This document shows, in pieces, positions 28,016 to 62,384 of a DNA stretch of 64,000 nucleotides; within the stretch, counting starts at the first letter, position 1; every line of letters begins with the position of its first letter. The notes beneath the pieces are model-generated. The model saw only the letters and a program-made list of their open reading frames with translations, made no database searches and had not been told where the DNA came from. The position numbers and the translations under genes were made by a program. The DNA is from Aldrovandia affinis (lineage: Eukaryota > Chordata > Actinopteri > Notacanthiformes > Halosauridae). Location: NCBI GenBank assembly GCA_029706075.1, contig JAINUG010000015.1:2017715-2081714 (forward strand), in the 5' to 3' direction.

Positions 28016-28236
28016 CATTTACATTTTAGGCATTTAGCAGACGCTCTTATCCAGAGCGACTTACACAGTTTACATTTCTTTACATACAATCCATTTATAC
28101 AGCTGGATATTTTACTAAAGCAATTCAGGTTAAGTACCTTACTCAAGGGTACAACAGTAGTGCCCCACCTGGGAATTGAATCTGCAACCTCTGAGTTATA
28201 AGCCCAGCTCCCTAACCATTACACTACACTGCCTGC
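28016..28236 (-). mobile_element. tRNA-derived SINE, family C
   Basis: The minus strand has the tRNA-like head (inverse of CCCTAACCATTACACTAC and GGGAATTGAATCTGC), the body shared with 19690-19850, and the tail GTCGCTCTGGATAAGAGCGT followed by AAATGTAAATGTAA, a signature common in fish SINEs. CATGTTA occurs at 28009-28015 and 28237-28243, a probable 7-bp target duplication. Confidence 0.85.
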
Positions 28237-42540: not shown

Positions 42541-42715
42541 GCGTAAAATGCAGCAATACTAAACTCAGCTAAGCTAGAATACATGTTAATCAGTTTCCTA
42601 CTGATAAAAGTGCATTTCTCAGTAGGATACTGATATAGTTGTCCGGAAGGAGGAAGAGGAAAACACATGTGGCACACATTAATTTAGTTTCTGTCTTTTC
42701 AATAAATCCATATAT

Positions 42716-45677
42716 GGGCCATTCTACCGAATTGGTTCAAAGTCAGGTTGGAAATATTTTGAAATTTTGTTTGTTTTATTCCCAAAACTTTGTCCGTATA
42801 TATATTGTACCATATCTAAAGTACATATATCTAGTAAAAGTACCGTCAATTTTTATATTGTATTTTCAGACTTTTTTGGAATATTTTTCTTCTCCCAAAA
42901 ATTGTCACTACCGAAACAGAGTAATACACTATAGTAAAAAAGTATTATAGTAACCTGTTAAGATTGTGTTTTCTTCCCTTCTCTAAAGAGTATATTTACA
43001 CATTTTTCTTGAAGGTTTTCACAATTAAATCAATAAAAATGACATTTTTACCAAATTTAAAAGTTCAATTTCTACAATTCATCAAAATCTAAATGCAATC
43101 TTTCTCTGTAAAATGCATAACACTGATCATATTGGTTTCAGAGTTAATGATTGATGAAATTGAACATACATTTAACCAATCAGTATCATAACATTTTAGT
43201 TTATAACTCAATATACTTAATTTTTTTACAAAACACCCAGTGTTTCGGTAGTGACTGCACTGTTTCGGTAGTGACCACAGTATTTTGTTTGCAAGGTTGT
43301 ATCATATTTCCTCAACCTTATTGCTTAATCTTAACTCATAACATGCCTTATGTTGGGAATATGTTGAACAGGGTTTTGTGGTCAATAAAATAATTTTATT
43401 TTTGAAGACATAACAATTGTTCATCCATAACCATTTAAAGTACAAACATGACTTATCAATGGAAAATAATTACCGAAGTGGGTTCAGTAAAAGAGAAGAA
43501 GAAGAAAACATTGACAAATAACATTGATATTATGCTGTTGCTGTCAGGCTTCTGAAAGCTAACTAATGTATCCTGGAAAGGTCTGTAACAAATAGATTCC
43601 GCTAGCCGCGATGCTAATTTTCGCTATGTTAAACTCCATTGACTTATGCTAAAGATGTTAGCGATCTAAAAGTCAGCTATGGTTTGCTTTTGGGGTCTTT
43701 CAGGATGGACGGGAGGTCCCTCCAAGGCAATGGTAAGGGAAATACTGAAAATAGATGATTGAACATTCCATTTTGCTAGCATAACTAAAGAATGCTAGCA
43801 AGCACATGGCTAGAAAACAGTTTTGAAAACATAATATTTTGCATAAAACCTTGTCACTACCGAAACATAGTAATACACTATAGTAAAAAAGTATTATAGT
43901 AACCTGTTAAGATTGTGTTTTCTTCCCTTCTCTAAAGAGTATATTTACACATTTTTCTTGAAGGTTTTCACAATTAAATCAATAAAAATGACATTTTTAC
44001 CAAATTTAAAAGTTCAATTTCTACAATTCATCAAAATCTAAATGCAATCTTTCTCTGTAAAATGCATAACACTGATCATATTGGTTTCAGAGTTAATGAT
44101 TGATGAAATTGAACATACATTTAACCAATCAGTATCATAACATTTTAGTTTATAACTCAATATACTTTATTTTTTTACAAAACACCCAGTGTTTCGGTAG
44201 TGACTGCACTGTTTCGGTAGTGACCACAGTATTTTGTTTGCAAGGTTGTATCATATTCCCTCAACCTTATTGCTTAATCTTAACTCATAACATGCCTTAT
44301 GTTGGGAATATGTTGAACAGGGTTTTGTGGTCAATAAAATAATTTTATTTTTGAAGACATAACAATTGTTCATCCATAACCATTTAAAGTACAAACATGA
44401 CTTATCAATGGAAAATAATTACCCAAGTGGGTTCAGTAAAAGAGAAGAAGAAGAAAACATTGACAAATAACATTGATATTATGCTGTTGCTGTCAGGCTT
44501 CTGAAAGCTAACTAATGTATCCTGGAAAGGTCTGTAACAAATAGATTCCGCTAGCCGCGATGCAAATTTTCGCTATGTTAAACTCCATTGACTTATGCTA
44601 AAGATGTTAGCGATCTAAAAGTCAGCTATTTTTTGCTTTTGGGGTCTTTCAGGATGGACGGGAGGTCCCTCCAAGGCAATGGTAAGGGAAATACTGAAAA
44701 TAGATGATTGAACATTCCATTTTGCTAGCATAACTAAAGAATGTTAGCAAGCACATGGCTAGATAACAGTTTTGAAAACATAATATTTTGCATAAAACCC
44801 CAAAAAGTTTACTTTATTGAAGAGAATATGTGTTCCATTCTTAAAGTTACACACTGATTTTCAGACTTTGGAACACATTTATTTCAAAATGATGGGATTT
44901 AACTACGTAAAGTTTCGGTAGTGACAAAATGGAATGGTTTCGGTAGTGACAATTCTAGCTAACTTTGAGCATAACTAAAAAATGCTAGCAAGCACATGGC
45001 TAGCATACACATCTTTGAAGAGGTGTACACACATAAAAACTGAATAATTCGCATAAAACCCAAAAAAGTTTACTTAATTGAAGAGAATATGTGGTGACGA
45101 TTCTTAAAGTTATACACCAATTTTCAGACTTTGGAACACATTTATTTCAAAAGTATGGGATTTAGCTACTTACCATGCAGCCATGAGGGACAGGGAGGCA
45201 GTGTGACTGCCTGGTCAAAAATGCAGAGGTGTGGCTAAAAACCAGGCTCAGCCAATGGACTAAAACTCTTGTGTTTCGGTAGTGACATGAAAACGTGGGA
45301 CAAGATTTTTTTAGTATAGTTTTTTTATTTAAAAATTAAACCGACAATAAATCTAAATCTTTCAACTTCTGTTTAAACTTAATCATAAAGATCTTTGAAA
45401 TTACACCATTGAACAAAATCTAAAAAATGTTTTAAGTGTTATTTACATACATTTAAATTTAGGGGTCAGGGTTTGGGACAGCTACTTCCCAATAGAAAGT
45501 ACCCTATAAATGTTTTTTATTTTTTATTTAGCTTATCACTATCTCATTTAATGCCTTGGTTTTAAATAGATCATAACATATTCTTAGTAAATATCTATGT
45601 CTGAATACTTAATTGTTTTGTTAAATAGTTCTTCTCGTTGTGGGACCGCACTTTGAACTAATTCGGTAGAATGCCCC
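42716..45677. mobile_element. 2962-bp non-autonomous TIR element with iterated CACTACCGAAA motif
   Basis: Starts GGGCCATTCTACCGAATTGG and ends with the near-inverse CTAATTCGGTAGAATGCCCC. The inverted match extends about 27 bases (TTCAAAGT/ACTTTGAA). ATATAT flanks both sides (42710-42715 and 45678-45683), although its self-complementarity leaves the exact boundary open. The 13-mer GTCACTACCGAAA or its complement occurs nine times inside: 42904, 43243, 43263, 43853, 44192, 44212, 44913, 44938 and 45274 (first and fourth inverted relative to the rest). Its core CTACCGAA is also in the termini. No transposase-like frame exists; the longest are the duplicated 80-codon frames at 43151 and 44100. 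I cannot assign a superfamily. Confidence 0.8.
42902..44799. repeat. 949-bp tandem duplication inside the TIR element
   Basis: 42902-43850 and 43851-44799 are head-to-tail copies with about eight scattered single-base differences that I could spot (for example CAGAGT/CATAGT at the start and CCGAAGTG/CCCAAGTG near 43473/44422), so about 99% identical. The joint reads AAAACC|TTGTCAC. A more diverged partial repeat of the end region follows: 44735-44905 resembles 44975-45172 (GCAAGCACATGGCTAG, CAGACTTTGGAACACATTTA). Confidence 0.9.
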
Positions 45678-46484
45678 ATATATTAAAACATGTTTATTAA
45701 CAATATTAACTACATTTCATTGATGCTCCGTAGAGGGTGACCCACATTTTGACTCGTTGTCCCGTGTCCTGCAAGGATGGACGTTGTCACACATAATAAA
45801 ATATATTGATTGTATTAACTAACTTTATCCAAAAAACAGCTGAAAGATACTTAGCTATCAAGTTAAAGCTAACAACAGCATTGCACTGTAAATCTATTTT
45901 AAGCTCATGTTTCAGGTTTTATTAAGATGGGAAATCCTTAGGGGTCAGCTGTGTCTGTGGCAATGCTAGCTAACATTAGCTTAGTTGTCTGACCTGCTGT
46001 GTTAGCATTACAGGCAGCACCAAAACTGTTTATGTTTTTCAAAATAATGTTTATTTTCATGATTATATATATGCATTTCATTCAGTCATTCATTTTTTAC
46101 CAGGATGGTTGAAAATCATTTTCAAGTAACAACAATAAATGCTACTGTATTATTAAGCTGGATATAACATGAACTGCAACTCAATGAATCCAAACACACA
46201 GATGTAGCACAAAAAGGAAGGCATTTTTGGGACTGTCTGGCCAATCAAAGGCAACCTATGGTGCCAATTACTCGGTCAGTACAAATTTCTATTAGCTACA
46301 GTCTCTTACTTCTGCTCCGCCATAGAGATGCATTAAACAGACTTTATTGAGATACAGCATCACAGTAATCCAGGAAAGATTGGTTTGATTTGATTCAATT
46401 TCTGCCTGTGAATATTCCAGCTTGTACAATACAATACAATAAAAATGTTAATGCATTTATTTATTTATTTTAAAGAATTTGTTT

Positions 46485-55204: not shown

Positions 55205-55265
55205 GTCCTGTAGCTCAGTTGGTAGAGTGTGGCACTGGCGATGCCAAGGTTGTGGGTTTGATCCC

Positions 55266-56171
55266 TGTGACAAGCCAGGTGACAATCGCTGGACTGGAGC
55301 AGAGCAGCCGATGGTAAGAACTGGCAGAGGAGTGGGGTTTGCCGGTCTACAGACCGGATCTTTATTTTTTTCACCTCTCTCCCAGACCCGGGAGAGAGAA
55401 ACAGTGGGAGAACAGGTTAAAATAAAACAAGCAGTCTTCACTCTACTTGCCGCAAAGCTTTTGGGCAAAAACAATTAACTAAAATAACAAACTAAAATAA
55501 ACAACAATAAATGAAAGCCCCGCCTCCTCCTAGGGGGGAATCCCCTTTCAGGGAACACACAACAAACACAGACAAGACAGACAGCCTTCATACATTCACA
55601 TTTAACACACATCAACACTTACTGGGACAGGGTAGAACTCTACACACTGTCCCGACACACACTCAACACACATCTCGAACAGTACACCGCGCCTCTTCAG
55701 CCCGGAGTTCTCCTAGAACCTCCGCAGGCACACACATATCCAGTGACTTTTCAAGTGCTTCCCATCCATGCACACAGAGACACTCAAACTTTTCAGTCCG
55801 AGTTCTCTTTTACCCCACACACAGAGACCCTCGCCACTCCTCACAGTGAGAGTTCTCTGGCAACCAGCTCCGAGACACTCTCCACTCTTTCAGTGAGAGT
55901 TCTCGGGCCGTTGTCCAGAAACACTCTCCACTGCCCAAGTGCAAGTTCTCTTCCAATCACACCGAGGGCAAGAGGCGGACCCTATTTCAAGGCGCCCTCT
56001 CGCTCTCTTTCACGATCACACCGAGGGAGAGAGGCAGACACTCTTAGTGCGCCCTCCTTCTTTCCCACACACACAGGAAGCACTCTACTCAGTCACTTTC
56101 GACAAACGCACACAGAACTCAACATAAACTCCACACACCAACACACACAAACACACACAAACACAACACAA

Positions 56172-62211: not shown

Positions 62212-62256
62212 TACATTTTAACCGTTTAGCAGACGCTCTTATCCAGAGCGACTTAC
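62212..62256 (-). mobile_element. Tail fragment of SINE family C
   Basis: ACATTTACATTTTAACCGTT followed by AGCAGACGCTCTTATCCAGA and GCGACTTAC matches the 3' tail of the SINE at 28016-28236. No head was found. Confidence 0.7.
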
Positions 62257-62384
62257 AAGATGTGCATAAATACATGGTAGGAACAATCATAGTTCACGCA
62301 AGAGATCAATGCAGTAATACAGCGATAGACATCATTGCAGGCAGCTGCGTAATAAAATATTACCCGGTATCAAAAGTAAGACAT

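Follow-up and report, generated by a model that had tools for sequence, protein, structure and literature searches.

In Spm/En and other CACTA transposons, TNPA binds family-specific subterminal repeats that serve as cis-determinants of excision. Derivatives that have suffered deletions are mobilised in trans, the repeats differ between families within one species, and the question has been raised how fast such repeats diversify together with the proteins that recognise them (PMC2613891, in the part of that paper available to us). Here, we describe an element with subterminal motif arrays from the halosaurid fish Aldrovandia affinis. It lies in a 64,000-nucleotide stretch of contig JAINUG010000015.1 (positions 2,017,715 to 2,081,714 of the forward strand, assembly GCA_029706075.1), which is referred to below as the window and in which position 1 is the first letter. 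The element is 2,964 bp long and carries nine exact copies of a 13-mer, GTCACTACCGAAA. We consider it probable that it is a non-autonomous, internally deleted transposon mobilised in trans, and that its 13-mers belong to putative transposase-binding arrays that retain their geometry while the sequence recognised changes.

The element occupies positions 42715-45678 (TGGG...CCCA) between TATA tetranucleotides at 42711..42714 and 45679..45682. The first-pass annotation of the window, which had described a non-autonomous terminal inverted repeat (TIR) element with nine exact 13-mers, placed it at 42716..45677, one base short on each side. The 29-bp inverted ends, TGGGSCATTCTACCGAATTRGTTCAAAGT, comprise a left TIR (TGGGCCATTCTACCGAATTGGTTCAAAGT, plus strand) at 42715..42743 and a right TIR (minus strand) at 45650..45678; the two are identical at 27 of 29 positions, and 39-nt inverted arms (42710-42748 and 45645-45683) show 90% complementarity. 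The short TIR core taken alone is weak evidence for inverted ends, as two matches were found with up to one mismatch allowed (both exact) versus 0.24 expected, and 3 of 100 shuffles reached two; it is the long arms, and the recurrence of both ends in the genome, that bear out the inverted ends proposed at first pass. Every copy of GTCACTACCGAAA in the window lies within the element, the shuffle expectation being 0.04, and allowing one mismatch revealed no further match in the window. The start-to-start spacings of 20, 20 and 25 bp reported for three pairs of sites were also found.

The assembly (1.22 Gb, 2,576 contigs) was searched for related sequences, and the window element proved to be one of several hundred copies. 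The 13-mer is present at 1,354 genome places (668 + 686) versus 96 (53 + 43) for a reversed control, and is not confined to this locus as the satellite alternative named in the first-pass annotation would have it. Searches with the left 201 bp and the right 404 bp gave 325 and 310 candidates, respectively; 40 were scored in each case, at 96-100% identity, and the two ends, each present in at least 40 places, recur together. When a 1,201-bp body segment of L038, a typical 2-kb copy without a gene, was used as a query, 41 matches were listed (40 candidates scored); end and body searches returned 310-350 candidates each, and the matches listed had identities of 92-100%. Scanning 30 loci for both ends retrieved 13 elements that extend from TIR to TIR and measure 1,705-4,631 bp.

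The termini of the family read TGGGS...SCCCA. TATA is found directly outside TGGG at 54 of the 55 distinct TIR-core ends in the loci fetched, the lone exception being the left end of L029, which is preceded by CTTC. At one locus, L040, the insertion lies within a minisatellite whose units are mostly 20-22 bp long. The left flank ends in CTGTAACTGTGTC-TATA and the right flank begins with TATA-GGGCTGTAACTGTG, while empty units read CTGTAACTGTGTCTATAGGGCTGTAAC and contain a single TATA. One TATA was thus gained on insertion, which, read symmetrically, amounts to a 4-bp TATA target-site duplication, as judged from this one insertion. With ends that recur together at many loci and a target duplication of fixed length, the element is a class II TIR transposon of the cut-and-paste type. 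A literature search for the letters of the motif or of the TIR gave no match, and one for TATA or 4-bp target duplications gave no title on a TATA-duplicating DNA transposon.

Copies whose 13-mers lie far apart served as starting points for an outward search, which led to a gene-bearing relative of the kind that the first-pass annotation had proposed to look for. This copy, L061 (C540:1-5200), has both TIRs and measures 4,631 bp from TIR to TIR without one TATA; it matches the window element over 510 bp on the left and 1,187 bp on the right, at 95.9% and 90.4% identity, respectively. Between the matching parts, minus-strand open reading frames (ORFs) of 157, 276 and 420 amino acids make up one gene, interrupted by a stop and a frameshift, that spans about 780 codons from the first methionine and sits between one left and six right 13-mer sites. 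No other ORF of at least 130 amino acids was listed in L061. In a second long copy, L063, 598 amino acids of the gene are open, and in a third, L062, the gene is in at least three pieces. Comparison of the window element with L063 by blastn showed that the left part of the match stops at 43541 and the right part resumes at 43598. Thus, the window copy is an ordinary internal-deletion derivative without the gene, with the deletion junction in the stretch 43541..43598, and its designation as non-autonomous was correct.

The gene product is probably a transposase, to judge from its sequence. In an alignment of four sequences, two from the family of the window element (family 1) and two from a related family (family 2, see below), the blocks H-x-D-[YF]-[AS]-E-N, SDGPxxQYRxKxNFYL and W-x-F-x-E-A-x-H-G-K-G-x-x-D-G-V-G are conserved, and residues D337, D418 and E451 (L063 numbering) are invariant and may form an RNase H-type DDE catalytic triad. 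The protein had no significant match in Pfam (lowest E-value 0.013) or PDB (0.11) and none with an E-value up to 1 in NCBIfam, and no relatives were found in prokaryote genomes, IMG/VR viral contigs or phages by contig scans with short peptide patterns, which were not exhaustive. In the A. affinis genome, a search with the catalytic half listed at least 124 matches (122 of 300 candidates scored), which points to a large set of transposase relatives; five of the listed matches are 92-100% identical (the query itself included; two are partial), and the rest show 29-50% identity. Many of the latter have long open frames, and no Pfam model was found for them. In three other copies (L030 2025-3011, minus strand; L052 1906-2496; L054 1534-2100), the gene breaks off at an identical point, where the codons for ETCVS are followed by a stop. 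These copies, not all of which are open throughout, keep only the N-terminal half, presumably DNA-binding, and the truncated gene is a candidate for a truncated-transposase repressor.

The family 1 copy at L029 (1729-7389), whose left end lacks TATA, lies within a reverse-transcriptase gene resembling that of a long interspersed nuclear element (LINE) and has a hAT-like ORF of 611 amino acids inside. One could therefore suppose that the window element is a stand-alone element moved by an unrelated transposase, such as that encoded by this ORF, which matches PF05699 with an E-value of 0.00025 and a score of 21.2 bits, just short of the cut-off of 21.4. This explanation is hardly credible: tblastn found the hAT-like ORF in L029 only, among the 86 sequences compared (the genome as a whole was not searched for it), the duplication is 4 bp rather than the 8 bp of hAT elements, and the TIRs of L061, like those of diverged relatives that share its termini, enclose the gene of about 780 codons.

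Positions of the 13-mers were next compared between family 1 copies, intervals being measured from GTCA side to GTCA side. In L038, seven of the eight sites are exact and one differs at two positions; their order is + - - ... + - - - -, and the intervals are 348 and 20 bp and then 38, 15, 155 and 188 bp; in L045, the corresponding values are 351 and 20, then 38, 15, 155 and 188 bp. The gene-bearing L061 lacks the left pair and retains one left site; on the right it has four exact sites, one with a single mismatch and one with two mismatches, the six being separated by 20, 34, 15, 155 and 188 bp. L063 has an exact left pair 20 bp apart and, in the stretch read, four right sites, of which two are exact, one has one mismatch and one has two. 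Distances between same-strand pairs, tabulated for 98 of the first 100 of the 1,354 places, cluster at 15, 20 and 341-343 bp, with outliers in single copies. The right half also contains an older internal duplication (about 80% identity).

The left array of the window copy consists of site 1 at 42904..42916 (plus strand) and, at intervals of 352 and 20 bp, sites 2 and 3 at 43243..43255 and 43263..43275 (both minus). The right array, also on the minus strand, has sites at 44913..44925, 44938..44950 and 45274..45286, separated by 25 and 336 bp. The remaining three sites, at 43853..43865 (plus), 44192..44204 and 44212..44224 (both minus), are exact duplicates of sites 1, 2 and 3. They arose through a tandem duplication of 949 bp, start to start, with units at 42897..43845 and 43846..44794 that are 99% identical over the 300 nt listed; the same event produced a second deletion-junction stretch at 44490-44547. 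The 21-mer at the duplication junction occurs once in the whole assembly, and thus six of the window sites are inherited and three are local. The first-pass annotation had the array multiplying within a non-autonomous element. This proved wrong, as L038 and the gene-bearing copies have a comparable array and the three extra sites are a private duplication. As to its related question, whether the array is kept across copies, the array is comparable in L038, L061 and L063, and single copies depart from the layout. The element thus belongs to a family with common ends and a TATA duplication, some members of which bear a gene between the same ends and array.

Arrays built of other motifs are present in two diverged gene-bearing families of the same genome, with a geometry that is nearly identical in one and roughly alike in the other. 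Family 2 (C335, C113) was found through the protein, whose catalytic half is 38% identical to that of family 1. Its outer termini are the same as in family 1 (TATATGGGTCATTCTA in L058 and L059; the opposite end, seen in L085, reads TATATGAGTCATTCTA), its TIR is CATTCTATAATTA, and its motif is a 14-mer, GTCAACTGTGTTAC, with 96 exact genome places versus 17 for the reversed control. The left intervals are 351, 21 and 18 bp, with one site more than in family 1, and the right intervals are 19, 37, 16, 154 and 189 or 190 bp. The pooled family 1 values are 348-352 and 20 bp on the left (L038, L045 and the window copy) and 20, 34-38, 15, 155 and 188 bp on the right. As can be seen, the spacings agree within 1-3 bp; the orientations are also alike, and a site with two mismatches occupies the corresponding place in both families. 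Same-strand pair distances in family 2 (85 of 96 places) cluster at 16, 18, 21 and 341-344 bp, and here too single copies deviate.

The catalytic half of the family 4 protein (C1335) shows 39% identity. The array of this family, traced via L069, is made of the motif GTCAAATGGTGTAAC, with intervals of 340 and 23 bp on the left and 32, 157 and about 181 bp on the right, a layout roughly similar to those of families 1 and 2. The family 4 motif was not found in L075 with up to three mismatches allowed. Among the stretches upstream of six other relatives, five contained no gene-linked array; this is weak evidence of absence, since the family 4 array lies nearer to the gene than the stretches examined. 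The sixth (L079) contained an unrelated element. Its motif, GTGACAACTTACCCC (841 exact genome places versus 3 for the control), was first assigned to the lineage because of its location upstream of a relative's gene, and was dropped because the element starts beyond the L079 gene and does not enclose it. The element has ends GTAGGGGAGAGCGGGGTA and an array of GTGACAACTTACCCC (+, 20, -, 32, -) and constitutes a separate family with the motif within the terminal region; it was observed at L083 564-901 to L084 1-153 (C113:3629913-3632502) and in L079 from 1442.

The occurrence of nearly the same spacing with a different motif in a related family suggests that the motifs are docking sites for the mobilising enzyme. 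The first-pass annotation had read the 13-mers as possible sites for the absent transposase or for a host protein; sites for the missing transposase would be the best-supported reading, given the conserved geometry, and since no other ORF of at least 130 amino acids was listed in L061, we propose that it is the transposase that recognises the motif. The 13-mers of the window element make up an array within either end, and both arrays come from its full-length parent; mobility would be supplied in trans by the DDE-type transposase, of about 780 amino acids, of rarer full-length relatives. The basic N-terminal half of this protein would bind the 13-mers and, in family 1, the CTACCGAA of the TIR. 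Several transposase molecules held at fixed spacing would fold both ends into a synaptic complex, after whose formation cleavage would occur at TGGG/CCCA, with duplication of TATA upon insertion.

The core CTACCGAA, which the first-pass annotation had noted as common to motif and TIR, is indeed shared in family 1 and may act there as an extra half-site. This echo is peculiar to family 1, and since family 2 is without it, the half-site is not general.

The arrays could instead be sites for a host protein, or serve the transposase gene as a promoter or silencer module, in which case they would be maintained for expression rather than for transposition. Such a role would fit the position of the right array, which lies upstream of the 5′ end of the gene in L061, L063, L058 and L059, and Spm offers a precedent, as TNPA sites regulate besides promoting excision (PMC2613891, same part). 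A second array is, however, located at the opposite terminus, past the 3′ end of the gene, and copies without the gene keep both arrays. Moreover, a motif that differs between families of one genome is better explained by an element protein that changes with it than by one host factor. We therefore regard the regulatory explanation as unlikely.

Whether spacing has been maintained by selection was considered next. Spacer DNA of families 1 and 2 gave no blastn match better than E 0.036, so that length is kept where sequence is not; between families 2 and 4, the best matches had E-values of 0.002 (at non-corresponding places) and 0.008 (covering a motif site). A neutral model with 0.05-0.15 indels per substitution, applied to seven intervals under 12 settings, gave a joint probability of the observed agreement of 1.4e-2 in the mildest setting (rate 0.05 and 0.3 substitutions per site), less than 1e-3 in nine of the 12 settings and less than 1e-4 where one substitution per site was combined with rates of at least 0.1. 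We take the agreement of intervals as fair, not conclusive, evidence of selection on spacing. Within family 1, conservation of the sites themselves was assessed in 23 of 41 copies, recruited by end or body similarity with a body query that itself holds 13-mers. Non-CpG mismatches numbered 16 of 1,423 cells in seven sites versus 706 of 35,191 elsewhere.

Several observations weigh against docking sites of fixed geometry. The conservation test within the family was null, as 870 of 5,000 random window sets scored as low; with CpG included, the sites are no better kept than their surroundings (40/1,702 versus 742/35,684), and gaps are commoner in them (57/1,759 versus 496/36,180). This null result fits young copies that decay freely after insertion and gives no support. 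In global alignments of family 1 and 2 spacers, three of five intervals reached z 2.3-2.7 against mononucleotide shuffles and two were at chance level; with such residual similarity, the spacers may not be fully saturated, which weakens the argument from spacing. The tolerances of the neutral model were chosen after the intervals were known, and its indel rates and lengths were our choice. The layout of family 4 comes from one copy with three exact sites, the others having two mismatches (three sites) or one mismatch and two insertions (one site). The 25 and 336 bp of the window copy correspond to 15 and 343 bp in L038. Opposite-strand pairs of family 1 lie 332-338 bp apart, start to start, in eight cases, and 247, 286 and 306 bp apart in one case each. 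The TIR of family 2 contains no echo of its motif of the CTACCGAA kind. Finally, none of the three long copies read (L061, L062 and L063) has a gene open throughout, and current activity is therefore doubtful.

The null result, the private 949-bp duplication that adds three sites to the window copy and the older duplication in the right half would all be compatible with 13-mers that are functionless ordinary repeats, duplicated internally and carried along with the element. Yet the sites are dispersed, occur in both orientations and follow spacings common to a family with another motif and non-alignable spacers. Satellite growth gives no such pattern, and satellite expansion was rejected on these grounds as the origin of the arrays; functionless repeats are, in our estimate, quite improbable.

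Transposase docking remains the reading we prefer. A stronger version of it, which we put forward only tentatively and would not hold to be the likelier outcome, is a lineage locked in geometry that swaps its recognition: some nine sites, spaced by about 350 and 20 bp and by 20, 36, 15, 155 and 188 bp, would hold their positions (to 1-3 bp) and orientations in two families and, approximately, in one more. If so, all sites would change their motif together, a rigid synaptic complex of several subunits would be combined with an exchangeable DNA-reading head, and sister families of one genome would avoid mutual interference.

Some further loci deserve mention. L034 contains two left ends, at 1154 and 2215 (1,061 bp apart), with identical outer flanks over the 24 nt seen, and these are a tandem duplication that includes host DNA. 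Elsewhere in the window, 3′ tails of UnaL2 LINEs were matched at 28024-28077 and 62216-62268 and a tRNA at 55211-55268, the two tails marking the genome as a eukaryotic one that contains LINEs; some insertions of the element adjoin sequences related to these matches (right flank of L037).

Extra transposase sites inside the TIR help synapsis in hAT, P and Sleeping Beauty elements. The target duplication is 8 bp in hAT elements, 2 bp (TA) in the Sleeping Beauty type and TTAA in Kolobok. The 4-bp TATA duplication described here differs from the about 8 bp of hAT and P and from the TA of Sleeping Beauty, and the presence of TATA at 54 of 55 distinct ends sets it apart from the TTAA of piggyBac and Kolobok. 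The values for P (7-8 bp) and piggyBac (TTAA) are those of PMC5199201, in the part available to us. It is quite possible that the transposon belongs to a known Repbase superfamily. As to the type of its transposase, our guess would be Sola-like. Sola transposons (Sola1, Sola2 and Sola3), which have a DDE/D transposase, are also TIR elements, and their AT-rich target duplications have the 4-bp length found here; the amoebozoan Sola2 targets are AWWT in one species and ATAT, AAAT or ATTT in another (PMC3627910, in the part available to us), and TATA does not fit AWWT.

The nearest mechanistic parallel, in outline, appears to be EnSpm/CACTA. Like Spm/En and soybean Tgm/Tgmt*, the present transposons carry, within either end, an array of a short motif that is specific to the family and varies from one family to another in the same genome, and deletion derivatives keep the arrays (PMC2613891, part available). 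The termini are TGGG rather than CACTA, and the duplication is TATA (4 bp) rather than the 3 bp reported in the same source for Tgmt*; because of these two differences, the window element is not a CACTA element. In addition, a basic N-terminal half and the catalytic motifs seem to be united here in one gene, and two families with differing motifs retain the same spacing of sites, a conservation of spacing for which the available part of PMC2613891 makes no claim in CACTA arrays. Since the transposase matches no curated family tried, the lineage marks a gap in general protein libraries. Subterminal repeat arrays are already known in CACTA and other transposons; what A. affinis adds is one genome with at least three gene-bearing families of differing motif, two of which share nearly one layout. 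This amounts to a natural experiment, in which it can be tested directly how protein and site change together and what part the spacing plays.

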